64,000 nucleotides of DNA from Tomocerus qinae (Eukaryota > Arthropoda > Collembola > Entomobryomorpha > Tomoceridae): assembly GCA_020055645.1 (NCBI GenBank), contig CM034546.1, positions 65,348,001 to 65,412,000 of the forward strand, written 5' to 3'. A model generated the notes under the pieces. It searched no databases. It was given only the letters and a program-made list of their open reading frames with translations, and was not told the DNA's origin. A program made the translations under genes and the position numbers. Of the stretch, positions 8,988 through 61,386 are shown piece by piece (position 1 is the stretch's first letter; the number at the start of each line of letters is the position of its first letter).

Positions 8988-8995
8988 TGCTTAGT

Positions 8996-13058: not shown

Positions 13059-13200
13059 TTTACTTGTCAGAGTTCAACAACTTGCTCACTCACAAATACT
13101 TCACTCTTTTCCACACAAAAAACTGACTAAGTATTTACTGATTGGACAAATTCACTAAGTTCAAAAAACTTGAATTCTTTTAACTCACAGATCGAATCCT

Positions 13201-35172: not shown

Positions 35173-37641
35173 TTAGCTCTCAATTTCAGAGATAATTTCA
35201 ATGTGTAATATGGCCGATTGACCGATTTGTTTTCGTTTAGGTGGAATTAAATAGGTGGTAACACGTTCCCAAAATATACCAAGGACAAATCTGAAACGAG
35301 ATTCAGTAGCTTCCATTTGTCCACCACTAGATTTTTTCTTTATCTTTCCAAACGTTTGCAATTTTCCATTTGTTACTTCAAATATAAAAATGGCAAAACT
35401 TACACATAACATAAACATTTGTAAATAAAACAAAGACATAATGTTAGAATTTGTAACTACATAGGAGTAATGCAGAGTAGATGCTTCGTTGTCTGGAATA
35501 GGTTTGTATAAATTTTGTCTGTATCTATTCTTCTGTAAAAGATTGAGCCAATCTTCCAACAACCAAAAAATTCCTGAGCTCATGAGAATTTGCATTTTGA
35601 AATTAAAAGTTGGAGCATGATAACATTTTGGTATGACTACGATATTCTGTCTCCTAAATTGGTTCAAATTATTTCCCTGTGAATACATTTGGTTTCTGTC
35701 GAATAAATATTCTTTATAGAGATTTAATTTTCTATTGGTATCTACCCAAGCTCGTTTAGAGCACGTCTTCAAAGAATTTTTTGCAACTTCAAAGTACTCA
35801 GTTGAATAAGGTTCTTTTCCTCTTATTCTAAATTCGCCATAGAGAAATCGATTCGGCAGATTAAAATAGGCAACATTTTGCAAATTGGTTAATTCTGTCC
35901 AATCCCAATATACTTCAGATGTTCGAAGACCTATATACTCAAGAATATTTTGGGATATCATTGATTCGTGGCCAGAATAAATATTAAAGTCGGATAGAGT
36001 TTTAAGGGTATAATGTAGTTCAATTATAGTTTCATTTGATACTTTTGTACATTTTGAATCAGAGGAAAAATAAGGTGCGACTGTTTTTGGAAAACTGGAA
36101 TGGTAACAATTGTTTAAATCAAATACGCGTAGATATCTCTTTTTAAGAAATCTATTGGAGATTTTGTCAAATTCACTAAAATGGAATGGCACAGTCCCTA
36201 TAATAACGAATGAATCCAGATCCTTGAAAGAGTTATGGAGGAAATTATATTCCGTCGGCGAAGAAAGATCGCTAACAATGATTCCTTTATAGGCGTTGCT
36301 AATAACCACTCCGAAGATAATCCATATCCCAAAAGTCAAAACCAAATGTTTCTTGTCTAGTAAATGTTGAAATTCTACTCCTTGTTCTACCAAAACAGTG
36401 GCATTTTTGAACGTATTTGATAAAAAAATTTGATACTTCAATCTTATTGGAAATGCTCTGGATATTTTTGTTTTTGGATATTTACATAAATATTGAATTG
36501 TTAAAATGAAGGAAACAGCAAGCATGGATATCAAAATGAGAATCCAGCTAATTTCATCGAACGGAGACAAATAAATACTCCATGCAGATTTTGACTCTAT
36601 ACCGCCACAGGTAACAAAATTTAAACTGTCGTAACCCGTGGGAACAAAATAGTCGTTTATGGATTGAACCCACGATGTGAAAGAGATGTACGGTGAGAAC
36701 AAATTACTAAAGTACCTTTCCATAAAAACAAAAATTTTTTCGTCATCAAACGATAGATTTTCAGCTAAAATTGCACCAAGTGCTTCTTTAATATCCCAAT
36801 CATAATTTGTAAGCTGCAGAAATGGCGATACCGTTTTAGAAGTTACTCTTTTGATAGAGTCATTGTGGCCATCAGGGAAAATATTGATTGAACCATTTTC
36901 CATGTTTATACAGTATTTGATATTCCGATGGACTTTATTGTACTCTTGGGCGTACGTTTCTTCAATAAATTTTGAAATTATAACAGGGTTAGTGTATTTC
37001 AGAGTAACGTTAGCCAAAATAGTTGTGGTTGTAGGACAGCTTGATATACATGTAGTGCAGATATGGATAACTTGGTGCACATCGGCTTTGAAATACTGAT
37101 AATCAGAATCAGGGCGAAAATGGTCGTATTTTGGTAACGGCCTTATTGGGAAAATTAAGAAATCTGAATAAAATTTAACATCGTCCCTACTCAAATGATT
37201 GACTGTCAATTCTAGAGAACTAATCAATATATTATAACTCAATTTAGAAAAACGAAATCTATAGATTGATTCAAGATTTTCGAAACTCTTGGATTTGAAA
37301 ATAACATGAAATTTAGCTCGTGGCAGACTCCATTTACTCCAATTGTTAAATTTTATGGAACAATAAGGTTCGAAGACCTTGGAGACGTTTATTATAGAAG
37401 TCGGAAAATTAATTTTATTTGGTGAAGTCAATATGGGTAACGCTTCATCAAATATTATATCCACTGCACAATTGGAAAATATATTAATAAATTCAGTCAG
37501 GTTACTTATTTCTATAAAATTTGTGCCGGATACAAATTTGAAGACACTTACTAAAATGTATATTATTACGCTGACAATTTTTTTCAAAAAGCTTGATTTA
37601 CTTTTACAAGTTCTCATTTTTCGAAAATTTTGACAATCCAC
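35173..37641 (-). CDS. Divergent ionotropic receptor, 822 aa, intronless
   Basis: Same plan as the IR at 27894 but well diverged. There is a basic N-terminus then a hydrophobic signal segment (about residues 20-38), an extracellular region with several Cys and N-x-S/T sites, a first membrane segment at about 356-380 after SPFDEISW, a VEQG block before the third membrane segment with SNAYKGIIVSDLSSP (about 440-465), the second lobe, and a last membrane segment at about 729-752 with a basic tail. It is predicted to be a ligand-gated cation channel subunit, presumably chemosensory. A downstream Met (residue 9) is an alternative start. Frames on the other strand in this span are shadows. Confidence 0.88.
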   Translation of the reverse strand: MDCQNFRKMRTCKSKSSFLKKIVSVIIYILVSVFKFVSGTNFIEISNLTEFINIFSNCAVDIIFDEALPILTSPNKINFPTSIINVSKVFEPYCSIKFNNWSKWSLPRAKFHVIFKSKSFENLESIYRFRFSKLSYNILISSLELTVNHLSRDDVKFYSDFLIFPIRPLPKYDHFRPDSDYQYFKADVHQVIHICTTCISSCPTTTTILANVTLKYTNPVIISKFIEETYAQEYNKVHRNIKYCINMENGSINIFPDGHNDSIKRVTSKTVSPFLQLTNYDWDIKEALGAILAENLSFDDEKIFVFMERYFSNLFSPYISFTSWVQSINDYFVPTGYDSLNFVTCGGIESKSAWSIYLSPFDEISWILILISMLAVSFILTIQYLCKYPKTKISRAFPIRLKYQIFLSNTFKNATVLVEQGVEFQHLLDKKHLVLTFGIWIIFGVVISNAYKGIIVSDLSSPTEYNFLHNSFKDLDSFVIIGTVPFHFSEFDKISNRFLKKRYLRVFDLNNCYHSSFPKTVAPYFSSDSKCTKVSNETIIELHYTLKTLSDFNIYSGHESMISQNILEYIGLRTSEVYWDWTELTNLQNVAYFNLPNRFLYGEFRIRGKEPYSTEYFEVAKNSLKTCSKRAWVDTNRKLNLYKEYLFDRNQMYSQGNNLNQFRRQNIVVIPKCYHAPTFNFKMQILMSSGIFWLLEDWLNLLQKNRYRQNLYKPIPDNEASTLHYSYVVTNSNIMSLFYLQMFMLCVSFAIFIFEVTNGKLQTFGKIKKKSSGGQMEATESRFRFVLGIFWERVTTYLIPPKRKQIGQSAILHIEIISEIES

Positions 37642-38649: not shown

Positions 38650-41600
38650 TCATTTAGGAACAGTATACCTTTTGAAACCTTGATGAGAAATCCCTCTCCA
38701 CTTCCCAGTTTGTTTCTCAAAAACGTAATATGGATGCAGCTCTTTAATATCATCGCTAGATGCACCGTAATCACTCAACTTATTAGAATCCCACCAAAAC
38801 TGTCCAACTACAATAGTAGAACATTCTTTAGTAGCTGGGGAAATGAGATTAAAAATTTTATAATCCCTATTTGAATTTTTTGAGAAGAAATAATCTATGT
38901 TGGAGGTTGCAACGACTAGGTGATTGGTTTTGAAAATTTGGCCCGTAAAATGCTCAGTTTCAAAAAGGTGTCCACCGAATTGAAGTTTGTCTAGCTCAAA
39001 AGGGAAATCTCCAACTTTATTTATCACAACGTTTTCTAAAACCATTTCCATAACGCTTGGCGGAACTTTGTCTAAATTTAACTTTATATTAAATTTCCTG
39101 CATGGTGAAGACCTGCCTTTAGAACAGGCTGAATGTGATAATGACAGTATCAACATTTTTAGTTTACGGCATGCTAACAAATCAGGAATTTCTGCTGAGC
39201 TGCATAGATCCAGTGATAAAAATTCCAGATTCGGTAAATTAATTTCAGTGTGGAAATCATTATCAATTAAATGCGCTCGGAAGATAGATAAACGTTCTGT
39301 AATAGAAGATATCTTTTTCAAATCTATTGAAAACTTTAATCTTGGGTTATAAGAATGAAATTGCAATTTCATATCTTTGGTTTTGAAACCATAAAGAAAC
39401 TGTATGTTTTCAGTTTCGCTACCGTCACAATTTCTGAAACGTGTTCCTTGAAGGTAAAGTTTGTTGTGCACAAAATGAAAAATCTCAAATTCGTCACAAT
39501 TGAGAATAGTTACACCATTTAAGTCAATCGAACTGATTTTTAACTTGTTTAAATCAATGGACATATTTCGTCCATGTAATAAAAGATTATTGACAGATGT
39601 AAATCCACCAAAAACCAAATTCGTATTTACCATGCGTAAAAAATCGTTCTCCAAGAAAAATTTTGTATACTTCACAGAAATGTCGCGAAGGAAAATGTTT
39701 GGTTGTTGCTCTTTGTGTACAACTACGTCACAGAGCTCTAAATGCAATGTTTTAACCGACTTTAAGCATTTCAACTCAACTACATATTGTTCTCCTACCA
39801 AAATCAGAATTTTTAAATTACTACCAAAGTAATCACAAATCAATATTTTGGGAATATTTTCCCCGTTATTATCAATGAAACATATTTTCCCTAACTTTAG
39901 GAAAGATAAGCAGCTGAAGGCATTTTCAAATATCTGAACATGACAGTTTAGTAGGTATACATTTTCAGAATCTTTAAATAAAGAACTGTTTAAACGGTCC
40001 GATAGTCTACAGATAAATGTTTTTGGAATTTTTCTTCTGAAGAAAACCGTCCCATACTCATCCGTAATATGAAATAAATCCATAGTTAAAACATCCATCC
40101 ATTCATCTACAGGTGCTTCCATTCCTACAGATGATACCTTGACAAAAAATTTGTAAAATAAAAGATTTCGTAAAGGGGCATCATACGTTTGCACAAAGTG
40201 CCCCCTAAAATGCCTCAATTTTGGCAAATATAACCGTTCACAACAGCCACCTACTAAATTAACTTCTAATAGAATTATTGTGTCCAAATTGACACAAGAA
40301 ACTAAAGAGTAAATTAAATCTGCTCTAAATACTCTTAGTCTAACCAATACTAGTTTTTTCAGGTTACTTGAAAAACTTGATAAGTTAAGCAACTCGGTAA
40401 AGCAGTCCAAATTCGGAGTAGGATTTCTGCCAAATAAGTTTACTTCTTTTCTGTCATCAGAACTCTCCCTTAGTTCTTCATCTGTAACAATGGACATTTA
40501 AAAATGAATTTATTGTCATTGACATACGCAAAGAAACCCCATAAATAAAGATTGAAAGATAACCAAATATCAAGATAAATTATTTACCCCGGCCAACACG
40601 TTTGTAGATATCATCATTTGTTCCGAAAGCTAATTTTCTCATTTTCCCCACAGTTGTGCTTATTTTTGTACTATTGCAGATATTCCAACGCCATAGGAAA
40701 ATATGCTTTCCAAAGTTGTTAAATTCAGTTGAGTATGAATTACCATAACAAATGTGCTTTTGGGTTTGGTACAATTGAGTGTACATGTACTCGTCCATAT
40801 CTTTGTTATACCCAATCATGTGACCAATCAATTTATAAAACTGGTCCCACAATGTAAAGTTGGTAAATGGACTCTCAACTAAAGTGGCTGTTAATGATAT
40901 CATATTTTTAGTTTGCAAAAAGTCTTTTTTAGAAAAATTACCAGCAGCAATACGACATCCAAATTCAACCAAACATTTCCGACGAGTATTCATTTCGTAT
41001 CGGTGTAGACAAAGGTCTGGCCAAGATTGAAGTATCCGATTTCGAAAATAATGAGCTGTATCAACAAAGTATTTCTGAGCCATAGTGAAACATTGGCGAG
41101 TTATATGCATTTGCATGCATTCAATTCCAATAAGATACTTGTAGTGTGATGGTATCGAATGGAGTGATTCCAGAATTTTTAAATTATTGTCAGAGGAGTG
41201 GTTGCTACTCCAGATAAACTTTTCCTCGTATATATTTTCAAATATTGGCAGCGATTCTTCCAAATTTCCATTTTGCTTAAGGCAGAAAGCATAGTTGTAC
41301 TTTGACGGAATATATTCACTGTCTCCAGCATCATAGGAATTGAGGAATAGTTGAGAGAGGGCAATCGCGTCCGAGTATCTATTTTTTTCCAATAAATCTT
41401 TAAGCCTTTTTTTCTCGACCAGATGTAAGCGATATCCATCAAAATATTCAATTCCCAGTTTCAATTCTTCCAATTCAATGTTGCTTAACTTCATAGCATG
41501 CAAAAATGGTGTTGCTTTGTAGCTTAAAAATCCTTTGGTTTGAAGAATTTTTGTTAACGTATTTCCTGCTTCGTTTCTTTTTAAACGTCGTATTACTTGC

Positions 41601-43815
41601 TGAAGTAACCGATGAATATTTAAAGCTAAACATTCGTCGCCTTGCAGTACCTAAAAATGAAAAATATGAATTAAAAATTTACCAGATCAAATCTCTACAG
41701 GTGTCCTGTATTGTATTATGCTATGAAAGAAGTTTTATAGTATTTTTCTAAGTATTGAAACAATGTGAAAACCAGGGTTGGCAAGTGAAATATTTCGCTT
41801 GAAATAAATAGAGAAATAAATGACTTTATTTCGCGAAATATTTCACTTCAATTTTTGTTGAAAAGTGAAATTAATGAAATTAATGAAATAAATACAACAA
41901 AGTGAAATAAAGTCATTTATTTCACCCGTGTAAGGTGAAATAAATGCCATGTATCCCTATTTATTTCATCTTATTTCATTAATTTCAATTAATTTCTTTA
42001 TTTCAATTAATTTCATTTAATTTCATTTATTTCACTTTTCAAGACAAATGAGTCATTGAAATGTGAAATAAATGCCAACCCTGGTTAAAACGTACAAACA
42101 AAAATTAATATTATTATTTCTTTGATTAAATGTATAGGTATTTACTATTGGTACAAAACTATTTTAAAACAATGTCAAAGACCAAATAAATATTTGGAAA
42201 GCATATTTACTCAAATAATAAAAATATTAATATTAACTCATTATCAATTTGCTTCTTTGATTTAGAATGAAATCCCTGAAATTATTCTTGGTTTTCATTG
42301 AATTTTCCTGAGGAAGCTACCTTATTTGCCTACTGCTCTTAAATTAGGCAAAAATAGACATAGAAGAACGTCAAGAGCTGAAATGCACTTTTCACTTAAA
42401 CAAATTGATTTAATTTTACTCACCCCAATTTTGTTAGCTGTAATGAGTGAATACGACTGCAACAAATGTAGCGACAGTTCAACTTCTTCTTTAGCACCTA
42501 AAATTGCCATAAAAAATTTCTCCGGTATGTAGTCACTGGATAAATATGCAAATGATGTCAATATCTGATCTGCCAATTCCCCTCCATTTCTGTCTGTTTT
42601 TATTTGCTCCAACGAAATCCACATAGTTGTATGTATAGATTTCTCATAGTCATCAAAACTTTTATCCAAAAGTCCAACTGAGTTTTCAACATTCTTAACA
42701 TAACTTCCTAGATCCATTTTGGTTCTGTTCAGCATGGAGACTGCAATTTGTAAAGCCAATGGTAGATGTCCTAAGCAAGTGGCCAATTTTTTTATCTGAG
42801 AGTCATTATAAACTTTATCAGACAGATTATTACTAAGAAAGTCAAAACTTTCCACCGCACTGAAAACGTCTAATGGGAAATTAGTTATGCATCCAAGACC
42901 ATTCGGATACCCCCATTCAGTGTGTCTTGATGTAATAATAGTATAGAAGTTGGAATTTTCAGGTGGGAGTGCGGATTTGATTCCCCTTTCTCCCAAATAA
43001 CATTCTGCATTGTCGAATATGAATAGACATTTAATACCAGAAAGTTTTTCATAGCATTCGACTGTCAGATATTTCAATGCCATATTTTTATATTCTTTAA
43101 CGTCCAGAATTGGTGCCAGATTTTTGAAAGCTTCTAGCAAGCTGTTGCCTTCGCAGTCTATCCATATTATTTGATCGTAATTATCTTCGAAGTGTTGGGC
43201 GTACCATTTTGCTGTTGAGGTTTTCCCAATTCCTCCTAACCCACAGATAGTAACTTTTCTGCTAATAACATGACCCTGGTTTTCTTCATTAGCCGTTAAA
43301 ATATCATGCAATTTTTCTACTAATAAGCATCCTTCCCTTTTTCTTTGGCAAAATGAATTTACCAGTTCCTTTTTATCTGGCCACCATTTGCGTTTTAGTA
43401 TTTTTGGTTTTCCCTTTGTATAGGTTTCGTTTTGACTGGTGACACCAGTTATTATATCTGCACAATGCTCATTGGAAGTGCATCTTAGAATATCGACGAC
43501 ACAAGATTCGATTCTGTCCCATCCTTTCTTATTTAACATCATCCATAAGTCGCTGTTTTTGACCAACGTAGTTTTATGTGGCAGTTGCTAATAATCCAAA
43601 GGGTTTGAGAGTTCAAGTTAATAAATTATTATGAATATTATTATTAAGTAAATGTGTAATATAGAAATTATCAAGGTAATCTTTACCACAGTTTCCTTTT
43701 CATCTTCTGAAATAATTCCTTTTTCAAATAATTGAATCAAAACGGGGTCAATATTTGTTAAATGTTTCGAAAGCAAATTTAAATTACTAATTATTCTATC
43801 TTCCATGTTATTCAA
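38650..43815 (-). CDS. NLR-type protein: CARD / NB-ARC / TPR-like / LRR-like, 4 exons, 1395 aa
   Basis: The model is complement(38650-40481, 40588-41650, 42424-43587, 43687-43815); all junctions are GT-AG and keep frame. Residues 1 to about 92 look like a CARD: the first half (IDPVLIQLFEKGIISEDE) is exon 1 and the second half (MLNKKGW..., HCADIITGV) starts exon 2. NB-ARC covers about 130-430, with P-loop GLGGIGKT (159-166), Walker B-type FIFDNAE, sensor ITSR, GHLPLAL, and NIHRLLQ (about 442) at the MHD position. TPR-like helices with YNYAFCLKQNGNLEESL follow. From about 786 the exon-4 region has irregular leucine-rich repeats. Family knowledge says NB-ARC ATPases oligomerise on activation and CARD recruits partners; an immune or cell-death role is inference. 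Exon boundaries are by eye. Confidence 0.85.
41773..42083. mobile_element. hAT-type MITE (311 bp) in NLR intron
   Basis: The termini are CAGGGTTGGCA and its inverse. They are flanked by GTGAAAAC (41765-41772) and GTTAAAAC (42084-42091), an 8-bp duplication with one change. The interior is made of gaaataaa/tttatttc repeats in both senses. It lies in the second intron of the CARD gene. Confidence 0.85.
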
Positions 43816-46754: not shown

Positions 46755-47261
46755 ATAGGAGTTATGTTATTAGAAGGTCATGCAGTCACACGCTAAGACA
46801 AATATAATGTGCTTGATGAGGATAAGAGAATATTATTCTGATTTTATTGATTAGCATTAGAGTTCTACTGTTTAATTTCTTCTCCCCCTGCTTCTTTATT
46901 ATTTGTCCAAAGCTTAAAAGTATATACATACCGTGCAAAACATGTAAAGTGTGGGAGTATTCATATCAAGTATAATATTTTACTGCTATATCTTACTTCT
47001 AGTATACATAATATATACGAGTATCCATGGAGTAGGTATGTTTAGCATATCGAACATATCAATAATTCACACTTTCGTTCAACAAACCTCCAACATTTTT
47101 GATTTGGTAGATCGTTTGAGCCTCAGGTAAATATATTTTTGGACACTAAATTGTAAAAAGAGAATATTTCTTACAACAAAATCGTCGTAAATAATACTAC
47201 CTTGTAATTAACTGAAATACAGTTTGAAACGAACATAATTAGTGCAAAAATAGTTTTCACA
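46755..47261. promoter_or_regulatory. Duplicated upstream region of tandem IR
   Basis: From tcatgcagtcacacgc to the ATG it parallels 50330-50784 almost base for base (for example gtatccatgga, atatcgaacatatcaataa). It probably includes the promoter and 5' leader; no element can be pinpointed. Confidence 0.5.
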
Positions 47262-49673
47262 ATGACTGTCCGGAAAATTGAAAGATTATTAAGAATTATT
47301 CTTATTGCTATTTTCAGCATTCAAAGAATTGTTTATGCTGGGAAATTAGAAAATTTATTTTCAACAGAGAAGGATTGCTACATCAATATAATCATTTACG
47401 AAACGTTTTCCACACAAGTTTCAGAGGTAATAGAAGAGCTGATTCAAACAAAATCTCCATATTCTCTCACGAATGTTAATTCTCTGAAAAGAGTTACATT
47501 TAAAAAGTACAAAAACATTACAAAACAGAAAATGGAATCACAAATGTATCAAAAAATTATAAAATCATTTGAATGTTCAGTTACAAAACAAAAAGTTATA
47601 CGTTCACCTTATTGGAAGAACCGATTTAAGTGTGTTGTGCACTTTTCTATTGATTTGAATTCAAGTAACTCACTCGACTCGGCATTGACAAGATACCTAA
47701 CTCAATATGTAGGTTTTCACTTCAGGTTTAATAAATTTAATAAATTTAAAAAACCTTATCTGTCATTTGGGAAAAGTTGCTATAATTACTGGGATTACAA
47801 TTTGGAGGATTACTCAAATGTTTATTTTCTCGTTAAAAAACAAAATTTGGGCAGTCTGGAAAACCAGACAAGATTTTTGAATGATATTGAATTTCATTTT
47901 TCTGGATTACGTGGATACTATTTTGTCAGGTCTTTAGTAGAAGACGATGAAAGGATATTTTTTATTTGTGGGAAATGTCAGCATCGAATAATGAAAATAA
48001 ATACAGAAAACTTAAATAAATTTTTGGACAGTTTGGTTCTTGCATATAATGGAAATGCTCCTGACGGGGCACTTTTGAGGAAAATGCGAGCAAACGCTGC
48101 GTTGAAAAGTAATTTCTTCAGAGAAAAAATTTATTCAGCTGTCAATCGTATTCCAAACCTTATACAACATTATTGTGGGCCACTATTACAAAACGAACAC
48201 TTTTCTACGGCTTTCATAGGAAACAAGGTCGACGTGGCTATTGTTTTATCTTCGATTGCGCTTTCCAGTTTCCCCAATATTACAATTGGCACATATGACT
48301 GCAAAACGATTGACAGGATAAAGTTATTCCATATTATGTACGAAAATTCAATACACAAATCTATTAATGCTATAATTCCAAATAGTAACCTAATTGTGAC
48401 TAGCACAGACAGTTACAATTATATATCTTGTGTAGTTCTGGAGGATGAGATTCTGTCGTTCTACGGCTACATCCGTCCGTTTAATCTCTCTGCTTGGATT
48501 GCAATTCTGTTGACAATATTTATTGTCACAATATTCTTCCAATTGACTTTGTATTTGAAGCAGAATGAAATCCACCAGTTCATCTTCACTTGCTGTGCTT
48601 ATGCACTCACCAACAATTGCGGATTCCCGAAGAAGATGGAGAAATATTTCTGGTTTAGAATTGTTCTGGGTCCATATCTACTGGTGTTCATCGTTCTTAC
48701 ATACGGCTATGCAGGAATCGTTATCACGGATTTAACTGAACCAAGAGCTGTTGGACAAATTGAGTCGTTTAAGGAAATTGCAGATTTGGACTATATTTCC
48801 GTTGTCAGTCCCCTGAAAGGAGAATCACCATTCCAACCGTGGTTAATGCCAGCAATTGAACAGAAATATATATTGTTCAACTACTACTGTTATATTTATT
48901 TAAACCTAACACCAAATGATAATCGAAGTATGCAGGTTAAAAATACTAAAATCTGCCGTTCGATTAGCTCAATCTTGAAAAATTTGACGTTTCAAGATGT
49001 ATCGATAGATAATGTTAAGTCAGCATTCGATTATGCTAATCGATTCGGTCATAGTCAAACACAATTTCTGTTATTTGATGAATCAATACTTTTCTCTAAA
49101 TTTGCCAAACAGCTAAATTCCATTTTGAACAAAATTAGTATCCCACTAATTTCACCAAAATTTTCTTTTCAACATTGGATTTCTCAATGCAATCGATCAG
49201 TGTTTGTAGATAGACAAAGCCAAATTCATCGATTTTTAAATGATTCTTATTGGAATATTGGGAAGGGGATCAAAACAAAAAGAAAATTGTACATAGGAGT
49301 TCCCGATGACAATACTATTACTCTTAGTACGTCATTCTACAGCACGTTTCTTTTTCTGGAAGAATACATGAAAGGAAAACTTTTTATTTTATCCGAATCT
49401 GGTCTCTACGCAAAATGGATGGATGTCTTCAATCATTTTAATTTTACGCAATGTCAACATTGTTTCGAGAGAGACCAACCACGCCCTTTGACTTTTTATA
49501 ATTCTAACATTTTCACTATTTTTGCTATTTATTTAGCTTGTTTAATTTTGTTCTTTTTGGCATTTTTCTGGGAAGTTAAATATTTGTGGGGCATGCAATT
49601 CTTGTTAAGATGTCCAATGTCAATATTAGTTAGCGTTAATGCAATATTGTGGAATGTTTGGCAAAAAATATAG
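47262..49673 (+). CDS. Divergent ionotropic receptor, 803 aa, tandem copy 1
   Basis: Intronless. There is a signal-type segment at about residues 8-26 (ending VYAGKLENLF), an extracellular half with a CGKCQ motif, a first membrane segment at about 404-433 (after RPFNLSAW), a pore region, a third membrane segment at about 463-490 leading into GYAGIVITDLTEP, the second lobe, and a last membrane segment at about 748-778. Nearly the entire protein aligns with the copy at 50785; differences cluster in the pore-loop stretch and C-terminus. A separate IR subfamily from those at 27894 and 35173. Predicted chemosensory cation-channel subunit; the ligand is unknown. Confidence 0.88.
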   Translation: MTVRKIERLLRIILIAIFSIQRIVYAGKLENLFSTEKDCYINIIIYETFSTQVSEVIEELIQTKSPYSLTNVNSLKRVTFKKYKNITKQKMESQMYQKIIKSFECSVTKQKVIRSPYWKNRFKCVVHFSIDLNSSNSLDSALTRYLTQYVGFHFRFNKFNKFKKPYLSFGKSCYNYWDYNLEDYSNVYFLVKKQNLGSLENQTRFLNDIEFHFSGLRGYYFVRSLVEDDERIFFICGKCQHRIMKINTENLNKFLDSLVLAYNGNAPDGALLRKMRANAALKSNFFREKIYSAVNRIPNLIQHYCGPLLQNEHFSTAFIGNKVDVAIVLSSIALSSFPNITIGTYDCKTIDRIKLFHIMYENSIHKSINAIIPNSNLIVTSTDSYNYISCVVLEDEILSFYGYIRPFNLSAWIAILLTIFIVTIFFQLTLYLKQNEIHQFIFTCCAYALTNNCGFPKKMEKYFWFRIVLGPYLLVFIVLTYGYAGIVITDLTEPRAVGQIESFKEIADLDYISVVSPLKGESPFQPWLMPAIEQKYILFNYYCYIYLNLTPNDNRSMQVKNTKICRSISSILKNLTFQDVSIDNVKSAFDYANRFGHSQTQFLLFDESILFSKFAKQLNSILNKISIPLISPKFSFQHWISQCNRSVFVDRQSQIHRFLNDSYWNIGKGIKTKRKLYIGVPDDNTITLSTSFYSTFLFLEEYMKGKLFILSESGLYAKWMDVFNHFNFTQCQHCFERDQPRPLTFYNSNIFTIFAIYLACLILFFLAFFWEVKYLWGMQFLLRCPMSILVSVNAILWNVWQKI

Positions 49674-50784
49674 GGTTAATATTTAAGGGGCTGTCAAATA
49701 ATTTGTTGAGGCAGAAAAATAATTATTTTAGGCAGTTTTTTGTCAGCAGTTTCAATCTTGGGTTATCATCGATTTTTTAGTTTTAATAAATTTTGTATAC
49801 GCCAAGTTACCTTAAATGTTATTATAAGCAAACGAGAGATTAATTCTTTAAAAATGAAAGGTTTGAAATTTTTTGACATTTTTGCTTGTAAAGCCAATTT
49901 GCAAAGCCAATAGATGTCCTAGATAGATGGCCAATTTTTTTCTGAGAATCATTATGAACGTTATCAAACAGATTTTTACTGGGGAAGTCAATACTTTCCG
50001 TCGTCTAATACTTACGTCTAATGGGAAATTAGTTATGTATCCAAGACCATTCGGAATTCGGATGCCGATGCCGCTATTCAGTGTGTCTTGATGTAATAAT
50101 AGTGTAGAAGTTGGGAATTGCAGGTGGTAGTGCAGATTTGATGCCCCTTGCTTCCAAATAACATTCTGCATTATCGAATATGAATAAACATTTAACACCA
50201 GTATCAGACTAACCTACAATCATCAATTTCAACAATTTACTTGGAAATCTATATTAGTAACCCATAATATAATATACCTACTGTCATTTAGTTAGTAAGT
50301 AAGTGACTGAGAATTATGTTATAAAGAAGGTCATGCAGTCACACGCTAAGACAAAAATAATAAATATGCTTGATGAGGCACATTTATACGAGAATATTAT
50401 TCTGTTTTTATTGAATAGCAGTATAGTTCTACTGTTTCATCCTGCTAAACTTCTTTATTATTTGTCCAAAGCTCAAAAGTATATATACACCGTGCAAAAC
50501 ATGTAAAGTGTGGGAGTATTTATATCAAATATAATATTTTAGTGCTATATCTTACTTCTAGTATACATATACGTGTATCCATGGATTAGGTATGTTTGGC
50601 ATATCGAACATATCAATAATTCACACTTTCGTTCAACAAAGGCACCAACACTTTTGATTTGGTAGATCGTTTGAGGTTCAGATAAACTTATTTTCGGACA
50701 CTAAATTGTAAAAAGAGAAAAATTCTTACAATAAAATCGTCGTAAATAATACTTCCTCGTAATAGTGCAAAAATAGTTTTCACA
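49674..50784. other. Intergenic between IR copies
   Basis: Holds a decayed ACTGCC-family end (aggggctgtcaaataattt, then ggcag motifs, 49686-49750), the NB-ARC relic at 49885-50205, and the duplicated IR upstream region (about 50210-50784). The frame at 50303-50506 lies in that upstream duplicate and is not a gene. Confidence 0.6.
49885..50205 (-). pseudogene. NB-ARC gene relic
   Basis: On the minus strand it retains pieces equivalent to the FDNAECY, ITSRHTEWG, NGLGCITNFPLDV and LGHLPLALQ parts of the CARD gene (matching 42757-43035), with frameshifts and small indels. No P-loop part or other exons are nearby. It shows that an NB-ARC gene once stood, or was copied, between the IR copies. Confidence 0.85.
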
Positions 50785-53250
50785 ATGACTATTTGGAAAA
50801 GTGAAAGATTATTAGGGATTATTCTTATTGCTATTTTCAGCATTCAAAGAATTGTTTGTGCTGGGAAATTAGAAAATTTATTTTCAACAGAGAAGGATTG
50901 CTACATCAATATAATCATTTACGAAACGTTTTCCACACAAGCTACAGAGGTAATAGAAGAGCTGATTCAAACAAAAACTCCATATTCTCTCACGAATGTT
51001 AATTCTCTGAAAAGGGTTTCATTTCAAAACTACAAGAACATTACAAAACAGAAAATGGAATCACAGATGTATCAAAAAATCATAAAATCATTTAAGTGTA
51101 CCATTCAAAAAAGACAAAAGATTATACGTTCACCTTATTGGAAGAACCGATTTAAGTGTTTTGTGCATTTTTCTGTGAATATGAATTCAAGTAACTCGCT
51201 TGACTTGGCACTGACCAGATATATAACTCAATATGTAAGTGCTCAGTTCAGGTTTAATAAATTCAATAAATTTAAAAAACCTTATCTATCATTAGGGTTA
51301 ACTTGCTATGATTGGCAGTACATTTTCGAGGATTACACATTTGTTTATTTTTTCGTTAAAAAAGAAATTTTGGGCAGTCTGGAAAACCAGACAAGATTTT
51401 TGAATGATATTGAATTTCATTTTTCTGGATTACGTGGACATTATTTCGTCAGGTCGTTGTTACAAGAAGATAGCAGGATATTTTTTATTTGTGGGAAATG
51501 TCAGCTTCGAATAATGAAAACAAATACTGAAAAACTAAATAAATTTGTGGACAGTTTGGTTCTTTCATACAGTGGAAATTCTCTTGACGGGGCACTTTTG
51601 AGGAAGACGCGAGCAAACGCTGCGTTGAAAAGTAATTACTTCACAGAAAAAATGTATTCAGCTGTCAATCGTTTTCCAAATCTGAGACAACATTATTGTG
51701 GGCCACTATTAGAGAACGAACACTTTTCAACGGCTTTCATAGGAAACAAGATCGACGTGGCCGTTGTTTTATCTTCAATTGCGCTTTCCAGTTTCCCTAA
51801 TATAACAATTGGCACACTTGGATGCAAAACGATTGACAGGATAAAGTTATTCCATATTAGATACGAAAATTCAATCGACAAATCTATTATTGCTAATTTT
51901 CCAAATAACCTAATTACAACCAACTCAGATAGTTATGGATACATATCGTGTGTGGTTCTGGAGGATGAGAGTCTGTCATTCTACGGCTATATCCGTCCAT
52001 TTGATCTCTCTGCTTGGATTGGAATTCTGTTGACAATATTTATTGTCACAGTCTTTCTTCAATTGACATTATATTTGAAACACAATAGAGCATATCCATT
52101 CATTCTGCTGTGTTATTCCTACGTTGTGGATAACAGCTACCATCTGCCGAAAAGTCTTGAGAAGCTATTTTGGCTCAAGTTAGTTTTGGGCCCATTTCTA
52201 TTGATGTTTATAATCCTCACAAATGGCTACACTGGAATCGTCATCACGGATTTAACAGAGCCAAGACCTGTTCGACAAATTGAGTCGTTTAAAGAAATTG
52301 CGGATTTGGACGATATTTCCGTTGTCAGTCCACTGAAAGGAGAATCACCATTCCAACCATGGTTAATGCCAGCTAGTGAACAGAAATATACATTGTTCAA
52401 CTACTACTGTTATATTTATTTGAACCAAACACCAAATGATAATCGAAGTATGCAGGTTAAAAATACTAAAATCTGTCGCTCAATTAGTTTCATCTTAAAA
52501 AATCTGACGTTTCAAGATGTTTCAATAGACATCGTTAAATCAGCGTTCGATTATGCCAATCGATTTGGTGATAGTCAAAAACAATTTCTGTTATTTGATG
52601 ATTCAGTATATTTCTCTAAATTTAGCAAACAGCTATATTCTATTTTGAACAAGATTAGTATCCCATTAATATCCCCAAGATTTTCTTTCCAACATTGGAT
52701 TGCCCAATGCAATCGATCAGTGTTTGTGGATAGACAGAGCCAAATTCATCGATTTTTAAACGATTCTTATTGGGATATTGGAAAGAAGGGGATCAAACCA
52801 AAAAGAAAATTGTACGTTGGAGTTCCAGATGACAATACAATTACTCTTGGAATGTCAATCTATAGCACGTTTCTTTTTCTTGAAGAATACATGAAAGGAA
52901 AGCTTAATACTTTGTCCGAATCTGGTCTCTACGCAAAATGGATGGATGTCTTCAATAATTTTAATTTTACGCAATGTCAACATTGTTTCGAGAAACACCA
53001 ACCACGCCCTTTGACTTTTTATAATTCTAACATTTTCACTATTTTTGCTATTTATTTAGCTTGTTTAATTTTGTTCTTTTTGGCATTTTTCTGGGAAGTT
53101 AAATATGTTGTGGGGCATGCAATTCTTGTTAAGATTTCCAATGTCAATATTAGTAACGTTAATACAATATTTTGGAATGTTTGGCAAAAAAAATATAAAC
53201 GCTTAGCCCTTACCATCGAAAGATGGCTCACGACAATAAGGGCGTGTTGA
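50785..53250 (+). CDS. Divergent ionotropic receptor, 821 aa, tandem copy 2
   Basis: Intronless paralogue of 47262-49673, sharing the signal segment, the FSTEKDCYINIIIYETFSTQ start of the ectodomain, the membrane segments and TDLTEP. It differs mostly in the pore-loop stretch between the first and third membrane segments, where the residues after LYLK are largely different. The C-terminus is about 25 residues longer because a frame difference near 53115 removes the stop used by copy 1. Tandem duplication included at least 450 bases of upstream DNA. Confidence 0.88.
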   Translation: MTIWKSERLLGIILIAIFSIQRIVCAGKLENLFSTEKDCYINIIIYETFSTQATEVIEELIQTKTPYSLTNVNSLKRVSFQNYKNITKQKMESQMYQKIIKSFKCTIQKRQKIIRSPYWKNRFKCFVHFSVNMNSSNSLDLALTRYITQYVSAQFRFNKFNKFKKPYLSLGLTCYDWQYIFEDYTFVYFFVKKEILGSLENQTRFLNDIEFHFSGLRGHYFVRSLLQEDSRIFFICGKCQLRIMKTNTEKLNKFVDSLVLSYSGNSLDGALLRKTRANAALKSNYFTEKMYSAVNRFPNLRQHYCGPLLENEHFSTAFIGNKIDVAVVLSSIALSSFPNITIGTLGCKTIDRIKLFHIRYENSIDKSIIANFPNNLITTNSDSYGYISCVVLEDESLSFYGYIRPFDLSAWIGILLTIFIVTVFLQLTLYLKHNRAYPFILLCYSYVVDNSYHLPKSLEKLFWLKLVLGPFLLMFIILTNGYTGIVITDLTEPRPVRQIESFKEIADLDDISVVSPLKGESPFQPWLMPASEQKYTLFNYYCYIYLNQTPNDNRSMQVKNTKICRSISFILKNLTFQDVSIDIVKSAFDYANRFGDSQKQFLLFDDSVYFSKFSKQLYSILNKISIPLISPRFSFQHWIAQCNRSVFVDRQSQIHRFLNDSYWDIGKKGIKPKRKLYVGVPDDNTITLGMSIYSTFLFLEEYMKGKLNTLSESGLYAKWMDVFNNFNFTQCQHCFEKHQPRPLTFYNSNIFTIFAIYLACLILFFLAFFWEVKYVVGHAILVKISNVNISNVNTIFWNVWQKKYKRLALTIERWLTTIRAC

Positions 53251-54897
53251 AACGCATATACCTATATTTTTTCTCATTTTCATGTAAGGTTAGTTTATCG
53301 GATGTCATATATTTTAGCAATTTGTAATGAATGCCAAGAAAACATATTAATAGCTAATTCATTACAGTTGCAATTTTGAGTTATCTTCAATTTTTTAATT
53401 ATAATAAACTTTATAGCCCTAGTTAAATTAAAGTTAAGTTTATTATAATTTTTGTTGCATTATTGTATATTGCTGTAATGTTCGTCATTATTAAAATCGT
53501 CTATATTTTTAATGTGTGATGGAATATGAAAGGCTATCCAGTTTTGTAGCGATTTTCGTCAACGTAATTTTATAATTATTGATAATTTTACCTTTAATGT
53601 TAGACAATCTTGGACAACTAAGTGGAAAATAATTGTTAATGCACTCCCTTGTATTTACTCTTTGTTATCGATTTCCATCTACCTACACAGATATACTATT
53701 ACTATTAATAAGTTAATAAATAGTACTAAATAAACGGTTTGTTCTAAAGCGATTTCAACTACATTCACAACATGCATAAAATATCATATCATATTACATC
53801 TAGTTCTAGTGCTAACGCACTCATATTAAAGTCATGCAATGTCAACACTGCATTAACTTGAGAAATCAAGCCCGGTTAGATAAATGTATATTAAACAGAA
53901 GGTACAACAAGTAACACACCTTGACGCATTACAGAAGCCAATAACCTCAGAAACGTAAGAGGATGCATGTATTGCATAGATAGTAGATTGAGAAACAAAA
54001 AATGCTGGATCTATATACAAGGTACAATTGAATGAAGTGCAGACGTAAAAAATGTTCACGAGCAATCTGATGCGTGTGCACATGGTAAATTTCCTATAGA
54101 TGAGAATTGAGAGATGCTTCACTAAAAACTCTCGAAGGGAAGATTGGACTTCAGAAAGACAAAAACTCCGACAGTGTTGGCTGTGGAGATAAAACGAGTA
54201 CCCATTACTGTAGAATTGGAAACAAAAGATGAAAATCGTAAGGTAATTACTGTCTACGTTGGAACAAAAACGACGTATGCTTTATTACTTTGAATGACAA
54301 ATGAATTCTAATGTAGACATTGTATGCGTTTCATAATATTTTAACAGCCATCATATTATTAGCAAAACTGTGAAAGAATTTGCAACACTGGAGTAACTCA
54401 CCCCTCTCTGAGTCAGAAACCAGTCACAACAATAATATGCAACAGAGATTCGCAAGTTTCATTCAGTATGTCATTTGCACTGCTATGCTGTAGGGAGATG
54501 TGAACTCCGTTTTCTCACACTAACTATTCACCCTTGATAATCATCCTTAAATGTTTGTTAAATATAACTGTAGTCTAACATTTTAACTACCCTACGCATT
54601 ATTAACCGGTGAGGCAAACGTATATACATAATATTAATATTAATACGTTTACATTAATTAGTAGTTATATTAATAACTATCAAATACATATATTAATCAT
54701 TGAACTTTTTTAATTGGCATGATAACGGAATTAACTTTCATATGATTTTTATTTTATACTCAGATATAACATTTAAAACTTATTTATAAATATAACCAAA
54801 TTAAATGTATATATTAATTCACTATTGCACTTGGGATTAATAACTCGATTTTGTATAAGTAATTATTCAATTAACTTTTGTATTATGATAAGGTACC
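53251..54897. other. Intergenic
   Basis: AT-rich spacer upstream of the GTPase/NB-ARC gene, with short ATTA/TAATA runs near 54630-54690. The 89-codon frame at 53853-54122 has no recognisable content. No other signal is seen. Confidence 0.5.
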
Positions 54898-57800
54898 ATG
54901 AATGGAAGAGTTGTGCAAATTCTGGGTCCAAGAGAACAATCTTTTAATTTGGACACGGATGTATTATTTGACATACTAACGAAAATCGGTTCTTGCCGTT
55001 TTGCAATTTATTCAATAAATGGACCCAGACGATCAGGAAAATCTTTTCTTTTGGACAAATTCCTTTATTACATGCAAAATACGGAAGAAAAAGACTGGTT
55101 TGAAAACTCCTTAAAGTCGAAAAATGAATTTTTTGAAACTAATCGAACACGAAGCAAAGGCGGTATAAATATTTGGTCTGAGCCAATATTCATTCACCAC
55201 GAAGGAGAAGAAATTGCGGTTTTGCTCATGGATTGTAATGAAACTTTGCAAGTTGGAGATGACGAAACGACCTTGAGAGACAACTTTTCTGTTTTTGCCT
55301 GGAGTCGTTTACTAAGCTCCGTTTTCATCTACAACAGCATGAGAGGCTTGGACCAACAGGCTATGCAATCCTTTCGTGCATCTCAAGATTACTTGGACCA
55401 TCAACTGACGCACGACGATAACAGGTTTTCATGTAGCATGTTACTATGTTAATTTATATCATGTATATTGTTATTTATATTTTTTGATTTAATAATAATC
55501 AAGACACGACTTGCTTTTGGTATTTTAAGTTTGCAGACAGAAATGAGGATATTTTCTCTGTTAAAGTATATAATATTATAAGTACTAGACGTTCTTAAGT
55601 CTTTTTCCAGATAGCCATAAAATAATTACGAATAACGTTGGCATAGAATATTTGTAACTTATGTTGATGCGAATTACCTATACGAAATGATAACAATATT
55701 GGTAAAGGATTACATTCTCCTTCTCAATATATCCATTTTTTGCAATATTTTTGTAAATCCTTTAAAACCTGATTTAGTACTAGTGACCGTCAGTCATTTT
55801 ACTTGTTCTTACTAGTGACCCATACTATTTCTTGTACAAAGTATACCAAAAATGATATGTTAACAAAGTTATGCTTGTTCACAGTAATTTAATGCTGAAT
55901 GAATTTATATATTAGATTCGGGAAAGGGAATCAAAACTGGGCGTTGCTACTTCGAGACTGGAGCTTGGCGGATTATGATTTTGGATACTACAATCCCAGG
56001 AGTTGCTCAAAACAAATACAAAATATAATTTCCAAATTAGGTTCAAGCACTTCACTCTTGCCATCAGAAGATGTGTTTAAACAAGAAAAAATAGCAGAAA
56101 TGCTTGAAGATGCATCTGCTTATTTGCTTCCACATCCTGGAAACTCATTTGCTATGTATTCCAAGGAGAATAATTTGGATCCCTTATTCTCAAAATACGC
56201 AAAACAATTTGTAGAATTGATGACTCAACAATTGACGCTGAAGGAATTTAAAAATGGGTGTTTAGTAACTGGGGAAGAATTTAAAGATCAGATAAAGGTT
56301 TGGAGTGAGATTTTAACCTGCGAGAAGATTCCTTCGAGTATTTTGGATACCAAATTGACCAGGTAAATAATAAAACACTTTATGTAACAAATCATTTAAT
56401 AATGTAGGTTTTTCTATGGTAATTATTTCTCTATACGTTTGCTAATGCCCTCCACAAATGATATGAATTCAGTTATTTGTATACTAATAATTAGGTAACA
56501 TTTAATATATGTGAAAAAATGTGTATAGTGTTTAGTTTGTTTTCTTATAATACGACATTGAGTAGATTTTTTAATCTAAATATATACTAATGTAAAATTG
56601 ACTAATAAATTTCTATCGTATATAGGGGTCCAAATAATTGTGAAGTCCACGAAAACTTAAAGAATGGATATTCAGATGAGAAAAATTCAAACGAGTTAAA
56701 ACACATTGCCAAAACACCAAAATCACAGATGTCAAAAGGACAATTAAATGGACAAACACAAGTTGGTCGTAATAGGTTAGTGAAATACTAAATGATAATT
56801 TTATTTGGAAAGTTTTTGTGTCAATTTAAATATTATGGATTAATTTAGTAAGAGTCCGGTTAGCTTAGAAAATGGACATTCATCTATCAATAGTAAAGCA
56901 GTAGAAGCCGAATTTACCAAATCGCCACAAAGCTTTTCGTCATCAGTTTGTAAATCGGAAATCAATGAAGAGTAAGTAATTTAGTACTTATCAAATTCAA
57001 TAATGCCACGTTTGTTTGATAAATTTGCATAAAAATTATTTTGCTAGTTCTAGTATTTTCGAAAAGGAATTTGAACTGGATGAAGAAGAAAAATTACTTT
57101 TAGAAGATTGGGTCTGCTCCGGAAAATTGATATTCCTAAAGAATTTCAACTCTCTAATTTCAAAAGAGCTTCCAATTCAAAGAGAAGATCGAAAGTATCA
57201 AAAGTCGACTTTTGCATCAAAAGTTGTAGATACGACAATAGGGATAGGTGCAGCGGCCGGCATAGCTGCGACAGGTGCAGCAGCACCATTAGCTGGGGTT
57301 ATTGCTAAAGGATTGTCAAGAGTTGTTGTCGGAGGTTTGATGGAAAAGGTTGGAAATGTAGTATTGGGGAATCTTGATGAAAAGAAAAGGAAAAACCTTC
57401 TAAGTTGGACAAATACATTAAATAGTAAAGCCGAAAAAGAATTTGAAGTGATTGTTAGTACAGGAATGTCCTACATTTGCATAGCTTACAAAGATTTGTT
57501 GAAAACGGTCACTAACAACGATGACAATAAATTAGGCTTTTTCCACGATACAACTCGACGAATTTTCAACTATTTATCAGAACACGGCAGTGAAAACAAA
57601 CAACTTACTCCTGAGCTTCTCTTCCAAGCATTTTTAAATGGACGCTCAACATTTCAACCTCTAAGTAAAAAAAGAGGATTGGAAATAGAGTCAAAAGAGA
57701 AGAAATTAAATACGCAAGACGTTTTTGAAGGTGGAATCCTCATTTCTGAAAATGGGATGAGCAAATTTTACATTAAACAAGATGCAGACGAAAAGAAAGT

Positions 57801-60800
57801 CCCAAGTCTTAATGAATTTAGATATGTCTTCGAATTTGAAAATAAAACCGAACTGCTAAAAAGGTTTAAGAAGTTTGAGGCAAATAACTTATGTATACAA
57901 TTGCAAGAAGATTGGAGACGAATACCAAATGTTGTTCAAGAATTTATTTATGGTATTAACAAGCCAAAAGATTCTGATAGGAAAAACTCCGTTGATTTGC
58001 AAAAGGAGAATAATGCATTATTAAAACATATATGCGAACATATGAATCAAATCGGTAACAAGCAGGATCGTGACGATAATTCATTATTAACAGAAGAGAA
58101 ACTAATTCAAAAATGGTGGCCAGAGAGAAAAGTTTTGGTGAACGCGTTCTACGAACGAAAATTGGACGGAAAAACAATTATTGAGCATATAATGGAGTTA
58201 TTGTTGGCAGCTAGCAATAAAATGGTAGTAATTACTCAAAAGACCAAAGTTTCTGGTTTGGGTGGAATTGGAAAGACTATTACAGCTAAATGGTTTGTTA
58301 ATTACTACCAAGACGATTACGAACATATCATTTGGATTGACAGCGGTGAAGAAAGTTTGTTAAAATCATTTAAAGACTTGGCCAGGGATTTAAAAATTAA
58401 TTACCGTCACGAACTAGATCTGAAAAATTTAGCGAGAAAATGTTTCGAGAAAATGTGGGAATCTAAATGTCTGTGGGTATTTGACAATGCAGAAAGATAC
58501 CAAGGAGAGCTTGGAATTAAAGATCTACTCCCGCAAAATGAATCTAATTTCCACTGCATCATTACATCAAGAAATACTGAATGGGGTAACAAAACGGGAC
58601 ACGCAATCACCAATTTCCAAATGGATGTATTCGGAATTAACGAAAGCTATGAATTTGTTAAGAATGCATTAAATCCTGACATACAATTCAAAGATAGCGA
58701 ATTAAAAACACTTTGTGACATGCTGGGGAATTTACCTTTAGCACTCCAGCTAACAGTAGCTACCCTTAATAATGGAAAACTAGGTATAAAAGATATGATA
58801 AGCAAAGTCGACTCGTCAGCCAACATTTTTAACGAAAAATTTGATGACTACGAGAAAACAATAAATAAAAACATGCAGATTTCCTTAGATTTAATTCAAA
58901 AGGAACCAAAAGGAAAAATCGCTTTTGATCTACTCACAATATTTGGCTACGTTCGTCCAGATGATGTGGATGCGGAATTTTTGCAACGTGTTGGGAATAT
59001 CAAGAAAGCAGATTTAATGGAAGCTATTGAATTGTTAGAGAAATATTCGCTGGTAACGAAAACTGGGACAGATACAAAGATGACCCACAATGACAGTTTC
59101 TGGAACAAAGTTCTTTTCCGTAGTCAAAGTGTTGAAGTTGATCTTCTGAGCATGCACAGACTTTTGCAGCAAACTATTAGAATCAATGGAAAAGACAATG
59201 AAAGAAAAGTGTTGAAAAAGATTTTGCAGTGCGAAGGCTATTTGGAATACAAAATGCAGCCTTACACTTATGCAGATGAAAAACTCAAGAAAGAATTTCG
59301 AAGCATTGGAGCCCAGTTGATTGATCAGATACAACTGGAAAAATTAATTGCCTCTGGGAATTTTGATAAAGCAGTTGCTTTGGCAAAATTCATTTCACAC
59401 GAGAGTCAATCTTCTGCATCGTTGTATAATTATGCCGTTTGTCTGGAAAAATTTGGAGAGACAAAAGAAGCATTAGAAATATTAAATAATCTACTTTTGG
59501 AACTAAAGAAGAAAGACGAATCTGAACTCAGTTTCAACGAAGAGAATGGTATTGATCTAATGGATCTGAACGAAAAGCTAACGAAATCTACCGTTTGGCA
59601 TAAAATAATTTCAATTCACACAAATCAACTTCACACATTATTTAATCAAAAACTATTTAGTGAAAGTCTTACACCAGCAAAATATCTGAGCAGCGTGCTT
59701 CAATCTGCAGCAGCGACTGTTAATCATGCAATATGCCTTAGCAAATGTGGTAAACCAGAAGAAGCGTTAGATCTATTAGAAAAGCTTTACCCAAAAGTTG
59801 AAAAACCAACTCAAATATCCGAAAATGTAGAATTTGATATTCTTTTGGCCCTAAGTCGATCTGTTGACAAATTGATGGTTAAAACTCAAATATTTTTTCT
59901 TCGACTTACTTCATTAGAATACGATCTAGCATCTGACGTTTTCGAAGATATTTTCGAACTTATTAAGTTCAGGAAAGAAAATCAAAGTTTACAGCTATTA
60001 AATTTGACATATCTGATTAGTATCCTCAAAAAATCAAATATTCAAGGATATTTTTTTACTTTCACTAACGGGAATGTCAGATTGGAATTAAGTAGGAACA
60101 CTAAAGGGATTGAACTATGGGATTGTTGTATTCAAAAAAACGAACTACCAACCAATTTAGAAAGACTTATTTTGAATCGGGTTTTGTTTCTTGATCAAAC
60201 GGCTAGTATTTTACAAATATATAGAATGTCTTCGGAAATTGTCGGTAAAAATATGCGTTATTTACATTTAAACTGCTACACGGACATTATCATTTCATTA
60301 GACGATGTGGCTCGTCTGCGCTTTCTTTATTTAAACGGTTGTACAATTTTGGTAGATAAAATTTTTACCAAAGTGACACCCAAGGAGCTTGGGTTACAAG
60401 ATATCAATTTCATTCGGGCAGATAAAAACGCAGGAGAAGATACAGAATTTCATTTAAATGAGTTTTTCAATTTCATGCAAATCCGAAAATTAAAACTTAG
60501 TGGAAGCAGCAACAAAAAGAATTTAGTATTTGATATCAATCAGCGAACGGCTGTAAATGAAAATAGATTTTCTGTCCTGGCATCACATTGCAAGAGAAAA
60601 TTCGCCGTGCAAGTAGAAGAAATCCCTTCGGTTGAATATCTTCATTTAAACGAGTGCTCCTTAATTTTGCGACATGGTTATCGAGTGTCCCCAAAAGAAC
60701 TTCAGGTTGAAGACGTAAAATTCATTCGGTACAACGATGATGCTTCAGATGTTCACTTGAAGGAATTTGTCGATTTAAAAAATATTCACAAACTAAATCT

Positions 60801-61386
60801 TTTCGATAAAGATATTTGGGTTGACATGTCAGACGAAATTTACATCGACTCGGTTACCTTATGGGAACCAAAATTGTTCAATTTAGAAATTGCCAAATGG
60901 AGTGTGAAGAAATTCAGCTGCTACCAATTTCCTCTTATGTCTAAAAATCTAATGACCATCAAAGAAATGGAAATACACGGATCTTTCTTGCAGCCAGTTT
61001 TAATAAACCTCTCCGCAATTCCAGAAAGTGTAGAGGTACTTACTTTAGGGGAAGGTACTAAAGTTAAAGGAACAAATTATAGTTCTACCAATTTAAAGTA
61101 TTTAAATGTAGTGAACAGAAATGCGTCCTGTTTGATTCTGTTTAACAAATGTGTTAGTTTGCTAAAAATTCAGTGTCAGTGCTTAACCGAAGAAGATATA
61201 TCAGCAGTACTCAAATATTTGAAGAAACCCCATAAAACGGTGCTCATTGGAAGTTTCACCTGGAAAAATGATGCCCATTTCAAAAAGTCCCCTTTTGCTA
61301 AACTTGTTAATAGAAAATCTGAATACTACCACTTTGAAAACTCAAAAGGAGTGGCAGTGGAGAAACAGCAATTTATAGCTTATTAG
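54898..61386 (+). CDS. GBP/atlastin-type GTPase fused to NB-ARC / TPR-like / LRR-like, 5 exons, 1861 aa
   Basis: The model is join(54898-55424, 55916-56362, 56626-56775, 56849-56971, 57048-61386); all GT-AG, phases agree. Residues 1 to about 235 are a GB1/RHD3-type GTPase domain: start with VVQIL...FNLD, P-loop GPRRSGKS (42-49), switch-like TRSKGGINIW (84-93), and RDW at 189-191. The G3 position reads DCNE (112-115) rather than DxxG. LLPHPG and helices to about 324 match the atlastin middle region. A polar linker, a Gly/Ala-rich segment (about 478-523), NB-ARC with GLGGIGKT (about 816-823), FDNAE and MHRLLQ (about 1117), TPR-like units, and irregular LRRs follow. The C-terminal block resembles that of the CARD gene. 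The first donor (GTTTTC) is weak; exon 5 has a twin acceptor. AATAAA is near 61446. Confidence 0.82.

Follow-up and report, generated by a model that had tools for sequence, protein, structure and literature searches.

The window analyzed here, the whole stretch of 64,000 nucleotides at contig 1:65348001-65412000, carries a gene that joins a GTPase domain of the GBP/atlastin type to an NB-ARC/TPR/LRR protein, and sequence comparison confirmed that this NLR-type gene is real and duplicated and that the GBP-like domain added to it appears degenerate. This domain order had been proposed in an earlier note and was confirmed by Pfam matches to PF02263 and PF00931, a TPR match and a predicted LRR solenoid. 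The GBP match of exons 1 and 2 is present (PF02263, E 1.3e-25, 90.6 bits against a curated cut-off of 21.1), and PF00931 scored 39.9 bits against a cut-off of 23.5. The NB-ARC domain carries a P-loop, a Walker B and a GLPL-like motif (GLGGIGKT, FDNAE and GNLPLAL in the translation), and its fold was closest to those of NRC2, Apaf-1 and CED-4 in a Foldseek comparison. As in NLRs, LRRs lie at the C-terminus, here as the predicted solenoid, and a Pfam scan found no CARD, PYD, TIR or CC at the N-terminus. The parts of the gene are given below, together with their state in further copies (L029, L030 and L041).

54898..55424, + strand: exon 1, first part of the GTPase (residues 1-175), with the P-loop GPRRSGKS at 55021-55044
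55153..55164, + strand: switch I region, SKGG (from the alignment; same codons in the decayed L041)
55231..55242, + strand: switch II, DCNE plus a 3-aa insertion (from the alignment; same codons in the decayed L041)
55916..56362, + strand: exon 2, second part of the GTPase (residues 176-325), with RDW and LLPHPG motifs
56626..56775, + strand: exon 3, linker (recognizable in L041; not found in L029 or L030)
56849..56971, + strand: exon 4, linker (splice sites recognizable in L041; one proposed linker exon each in L029 and L030)
57048..61386, + strand: exon 5, comprising MID, NB-ARC, winged-helix/TPR, LRR and the stop (81% DNA identity to L030)
57058..58089, + strand: MID domain, residues 420-763 (helical; no Pfam family)
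58180..58881, + strand: NB-ARC, residues 794-1027 (GLGGIGKT, FDNAE, GNLPLAL; MHR further downstream)
59344..59508, + strand: TPR, residues 1182-1236 (domain match)
60010..61248, + strand: predicted LRR solenoid (68% identity to L030 over residues 1331-1861)

Copies of the gene and selection

In the genome searched (334,443,149 bases in 115 contigs), the full fused order was found in three copies, including that of the window, and a fourth, decayed copy shows the first part of this order. The other copies are as follows.

Contig 1:63765501-63775400, - strand: L030, a 1854-aa open model of exons 1 and 2, one linker exon (selected from several open options) and exon 5
Contig 1:63818101-63828000, - strand: L029, same order, with the NB-ARC frame split by about 0.5 kb (insert or intron)
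Contig 1:65254501-65260500, - strand: L041, decayed, with exons 1, 3, 4 and the start of exon 5 recognizable in 6 kb

About 2.6 kb stands in place of exon 2 in L041, and stops are present. DNA identity between the window copy and L030 is 84% over 54892-55427, 76% over 55902-56377 and 81% over 57046-61376, and the exon 1 proteins share 79% of their amino acids. Because two of the four copies are damaged (the NB-ARC frame of L029 is interrupted and L041 is decayed), the fusion trait may be unstable. For the single pair of the window copy and L030, dN/dS obtained by counting was 0.18 for exon 1, 0.34 for exon 2, 0.63 for the linker (53 codons; bootstrap 0.31-1.55), 0.14 for MID (residues 420-775), 0.08 for NB-ARC, 0.11 for the winged-helix and TPR part, 0.22 for the LRR (residues 1331-1861) and 0.19 for the whole protein (bootstrap 0.16-0.22). 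Positive selection on the LRR finds no support in this region-wide value of 0.22.

An assembly chimera or a chance reading frame was ruled out by the copies elsewhere on the contig and the conserved exon borders, and contamination by the introns, the paralogues on the 140-Mb contig and the receptor-like frames nearby (named by eye). The locus might also consist of two adjacent genes, a short GTPase of exons 1 and 2 followed by an independent MID-NB-ARC-LRR gene, the two having been duplicated together, which we regard as very unlikely. Two AATAAA motifs at 56369 and 56604, both within intron 2, the Met that exon 3 encodes at residue 360 and the existence of a MID-first frame at another locus (L039, described below) are in its favor; any phase-2 GTAA donor gives a stop after exon 2. 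However, the exon 5 frame of the window copy contains no Met before residue 514, which is inside MID, an argument limited to this copy since exon 5 of L030 does have a Met close to its start. Moreover, both linker exons can be recognized in L041 together with their splice sites, the proposed linker exon of L030 maintains the frame, and no AATAAA occurs between exons 2 and 5 of L030. Least probable of all is a decaying gene without function: although L041 is decayed and L029 interrupted, both the window copy and L030 have open frames exceeding 1850 codons, and the overall dN/dS is 0.19 with the bootstrap range given above.

Several other features were observed in the window. At 7217-13073 (- strand), Copia-type gag and pol frames are followed by a 657-codon frame that looks env-like by eye, with RSKR and hydrophobic stretches and no Pfam match. 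Long intronless frames resembling divergent ionotropic receptors by eye lie at 2380-3174, 27879-30137, 35176-37641, 47208-49670 and 50746-53247, and a Pfam scan of those starting at 27879, 35176 and 50746 gave no match. A Reprolysin metalloprotease (32634-34424, - strand, E 1.4e-11) and a CAP-domain protein (30472-30921, - strand, E 2.6e-8) were also detected.

State of the fused GTPase

Atlastins are the closest solved structures to the fused GTPase by sequence (E 4.4e-27). We aligned it with related domains, giving 23 rows in all: 3 from fused copies, 18 from other copies in the same genome and 2 from tick units. The switch-I Thr is missing in all three readable fused copies (SKGG or SIGG), whereas each of the 20 other rows has Thr (xTxG). 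The switch-II DxxG is replaced by DCNE plus a 3-residue insertion in the same three copies and is retained in 18/18 non-fused copies of the genome, which all have the switch-I Thr as well; one tick unit has a gap at DxxG and the other has Tyr replacing Asp. At the DNA level, the decayed L041 contains the same SKGG and DCNE codons, and thus the change predates these duplications. The P-loop GxxxxGKS (GPRRSGKS) and RD (RDW) are kept in the three aligned fused copies, RD being preserved wherever exon 2 exists. At the fourth P-loop position, the window copy retains Arg, and L029 and L030 have Gln. GBP_C (PF02841) is absent from the fusion at E <= 1, and neither a CaaX end nor a paired hydrophobic membrane anchor was seen in the C-terminus (QQFIAY) or by hydropathy scan.

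The switch-I Thr and the DxxG residues play a role in GTP hydrolysis in this family. Because the Thr and the DxxG glycine are lost, GTP hydrolysis by the fused GTPase is unlikely; the domain appears to retain a nucleotide pocket without key catalytic residues and, given this loss, would resemble a built-in bait or a scaffold more than a working enzyme. The earlier suggestion of a working GTPase that assembles on membranes is not borne out, since all three readable copies lack both residues and L041 is likewise altered. Despite its altered switches, the GTPase is under purifying selection (dN/dS 0.18 and 0.34 in its two exons), and as a whole it gave no sign of positive selection in the comparison of the window copy with L030.

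Origin of the fused GTPase and the GBP repertoire

A profile search of the genome with PF02263 yielded 72 matches, merged to 57 loci (fused ones included), and the control search gave 0/14 genomes; the host family of the extra domain is therefore present elsewhere in the genome. In a GTPase tree that includes part of these 57 loci (24 rows, 298 columns, with caveats on the quality of rows), built with 18 non-fused copies and one atlastin-like gene of this genome, the fused domains cluster with L027 and L028 on a long branch (UFBoot 100), and the atlastin-like gene L040 clusters with the tick protein (UFBoot 100). The exon 1/2 junction of the fusion is matched in place by a phase-2 intron in L026 and L028, if the strongest donor is taken from the 5 and 7 splice options, respectively, that leave the frame open. 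The protein of L027 ends in CVIA followed by the stop, which we take to be a CaaX-like end. Among the compared copies, the nearest relatives of the fused GTPase thus appear to be two-exon GBP-like genes rather than the atlastin-like gene. Of the original label "GBP/atlastin-type", the domain type stands and an atlastin affinity is not supported: the closest structures are atlastins, but the tree places the GBP-like L027 and L028 nearest.

GBP domains are also fused to other partners in this genome. A search for HSP70 gave at least 86 matches (72 of 90 candidates scored), and among the matches listed, weak ones included, an HSP70 match follows at most 6 kb downstream on the strand of the GBP match at 22/57 GBP loci and lies on the other strand within 8 kb at 2/57. 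By Pfam, single frames on contig 1 of 1490-1842 aa combine an N-terminal GBP GTPase with HSP70 at L009, L010, L012, L015 and L017 (5/5 given) and at L019, the frame of which misses the GBP start. A 548-aa frame at L014:7417-9060 (- strand) joins a GBP GTPase to ApoL (PF05461, E 3.4e-9); GBPs and APOL3 act together in vertebrates. In addition, some twelve weak GBP matches, covering about positions 10-130 of the profile, were observed in frames of 900-2300 codons on contig 1 (for example, at 137602259, 132689686 and 42735129).

MID domain

MID, a helical region of about 345 aa, lies between the GTPase and NB-ARC. Its residues 484-502 form a hydrophobic, Gly/Ala-rich stretch, the sole one in the fusion above the hydropathy threshold, and structure-model confidence is low across the domain. 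The window MID had no Pfam match, the MIDs of other loci gave matches below the cut-off (BID 0.019 and RTX 0.14 in L030; Nup49_C 0.099 in L039), and MID alone had no match in a bacterial defence library. An ApoL-like nature of MID was not supported, as the window MID lacks a Pfam match and BLASTP against the ApoL-bearing GBP at L014 gave only E 0.67-8.3.

The genome search with residues 420-763 returned 11 matches, grouped into 8 loci. Four of these are the three fused copies and the decayed copy, and the remaining four lie at 56.21, 136.25, 66.04 and 15.22 Mb. A GBP match is listed upstream at 4/8 of these loci, and the four non-fused loci have no GBP match within 6 kb, among the matches listed. 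At L039 (66.04 Mb), the one of these four whose sequence was inspected, a Met followed by MID opens the frame of an NB-ARC gene, where further upstream exons are possible. Two bacterial NB-ARC proteins, assigned by source name to Rickettsiella and Aquirickettsiella (P0005 and P0006) align to residues 491-1129 of the fusion with 25-26% identity, that is, from within MID through NB-ARC; they differ from it in having long other parts and no PF02263 among their listed domains. Because these alignments begin at residue 491, part of MID seems to belong more widely to this NB-ARC class. When prokaryote genomes were scanned for P0006 relatives, 17 pattern matches emerged, none of which was confirmed.

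CARD-bearing paralogue and NB-ARC repertoire

The window also contains a paralogue of the receptor part and a fragment of another.

43806..38650, - strand: CARD-NB-ARC-TPR-LRR-like paralogue, 1392 aa, 11 kb from the fusion on the opposite strand (exons 43806-43687, 43587-42424, 41650-40588 and 40481-38653; stop 38652-38650; splice sites picked among several open combinations)
50077..50193, - strand: NB-ARC scrap, 59% identity over 39 aa

The first 92 aa of the paralogue match CARD (PF00619, E 1.7e-6, 28.4 bits, cut-off 23.9), whereas on the whole protein the match falls below the cut-off (E 1.4e-4, 22.3 bits); against PDB sequences, the same 92 aa gave weak matches, with CARD8 as the best (E 0.086). 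NB-ARC was found at E 1.9e-7. Pfam detected no TPR or LRR family in the paralogue, and both were called by similarity to the fusion, to which it is 39% identical over residues 768-1231. The earlier note had held that the GTPase replaces a CARD-type effector. The in-window paralogue does carry an N-terminal CARD, but a simple swap is not supported, since MID intervenes before NB-ARC in the fusion and leads the frame in L039. Among the best 8 NB-ARC loci of the genome, the NB-ARC frame begins with the second half of the paralogue CARD in five, and three of these five also have the first half upstream; of the rest, L034 matches the first half at its far end, L033 has MID and L031 has neither. Pfam recognized CARD in 1/7 of these NB-ARC locus frames, below the cut-off.

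A PF00931 profile search of the genome gave at least 126 matches, 116 of them on contig 1 by our own reading; it scored 126 of 253 candidates, the control search matched in 6/14 genomes (above the cut-off in three), and the matches omit the NB-ARC domains of the window paralogue, L029 and L030. Many contig 1 matches lie in frames of about 900-2000 codons, which looks like an NLR-like expansion in a hexapod. Arthropods are generally described as having few or no NLR-type receptors, and among the matches listed in the open-access literature we found no report of such a hexapod NLR repertoire.

Comparison with known systems

The fusion resembles plant NLR-IDs in that a receptor with NB-ARC and LRR carries an additional domain belonging to a different protein family of the host; in the plant examples RGA5 and Pik-1, these are HMA domains. 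It differs from them in being an animal gene, in its N-terminal, apparently degenerate GBP-like GTPase and in the TPR between NB-ARC and LRR, and a bait role of its GTPase is our proposal from sequence. Its NB-ARC fold is common to Apaf-1 and CED-4, and its paralogue carries CARD. The C-terminus of Apaf-1 is WD40; the fusion, in contrast, has TPR and LRR there, and the GTPase and MID take the place of CARD. Animal NLRs of the Hydra type also have NB-ARC and TPR. With GBPs and atlastins, the fusion shares the GTPase domain match (PF02263), the P-loop and the RD motif, but its switches I and II are altered, it has no GBP_C, CaaX end or paired anchor, and it is joined to NB-ARC. The best GTPase match in the protein collection, the tick protein LOC144142310 (P0001), has PF02263 too, but in two GBP units (by BLASTP), with GBP_C and no NB-ARC listed. 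No protein with both PF02263 and PF00931 among its listed Pfam domains was found among the matches listed (2/7,994, 61/7,984 and 1/1,176 scored), in a search that relies on shared 5-residue words and that distant fusions could escape. Likewise, among the matches listed in the open-access literature (titles and abstract starts), no description of a GBP-NB-ARC fusion protein was found; the match that pairs guanylate-binding protein with NB-ARC is an Aegilops tauschii mapping study, not such a fusion.

Discussion

Our first choice is that the gene encodes an NLR whose integrated GBP domain, now degenerate, acts as a bait within the receptor, with MID as a possible output, a reading that we consider quite possible though short of probable. 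The ancestral receptor would have been an NLR-type (STAND) protein of MID-NB-ARC-TPR-LRR order. A GBP-like GTPase may then have been joined to its N-terminus via a phase-2 exon join, and the product duplicated; the added domain would have kept its nucleotide pocket and lost the residues that read and hydrolyze GTP. Resembling the working GBPs of the same cell, it could act as bait: a microbial factor directed against GBPs, or binding to them, would contact the fused domain, or a ligand would contact the LRR, whereupon NB-ARC would swap ADP for ATP and the protein would oligomerize. The signal might be passed on by MID, with its helical make-up and Gly/Ala-rich hydrophobic stretch, or by a partner. 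The evidence for this reading comprises the full order in three copies, the switch losses, purifying selection, the MID-first frame of L039, the grouping with L027 and L028, the shared phase-2 intron, the Apaf-1/NRC2-like fold and the large NB-ARC repertoire. Weighing against it are the absence of signs of positive selection across the GTPase, the damage in two of the four copies, and MID, which matches no Pfam family and is modeled with low confidence.

The apparent loss of catalysis would fit a scaffold as well as a bait, and a scaffold, our next choice, is somewhat unlikely. GBPs heterodimerize, and a pseudo-GTPase that binds nucleotide without hydrolysis might recruit working, possibly prenylated GBPs upon NB-ARC oligomerization, so that these heterodimer contacts would make the fused domain part of the output. 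The kept P-loop and RD, the N-terminal position where relatives have CARD and the CVIA end of the near relative L027 are consistent with such a role; the GTPase contact of GBPs, however, depends on switch residues, which are lost here, and MID is retained as a possible output. A working effector, in which sensing drives GTP-dependent assembly on membranes, is unlikely. It could draw on the PF02263 and atlastin matches (E 1.3e-25 and 4.4e-27) and on the P-loop Arg of the window copy, but L029 and L030 have Gln in place of this Arg, 3/3 readable copies lack the switch-I Thr as well as the DxxG glycine, and the sole stretch above the hydropathy threshold is in MID. The bait idea is directly testable because the catalytic residues are lost.

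More broadly, and tentatively, we suggest that this springtail-lineage hexapod has a large NLR-like repertoire with swappable N-termini, one branch of which would carry an integrated decoy, a GBP devoid of catalysis, that guards the GBP system, an animal counterpart of the plant NLR-IDs in a genome that also has GBP-HSP70 and GBP-ApoL fusions. GBP and NLR families cooperate in vertebrates, and the fusion described here connects these two immune families. With more than 100 NB-ARC matches, relatives bearing CARD and a GBP-fused branch, this genome would provide a new system for studying how intracellular receptors diversify in animals.
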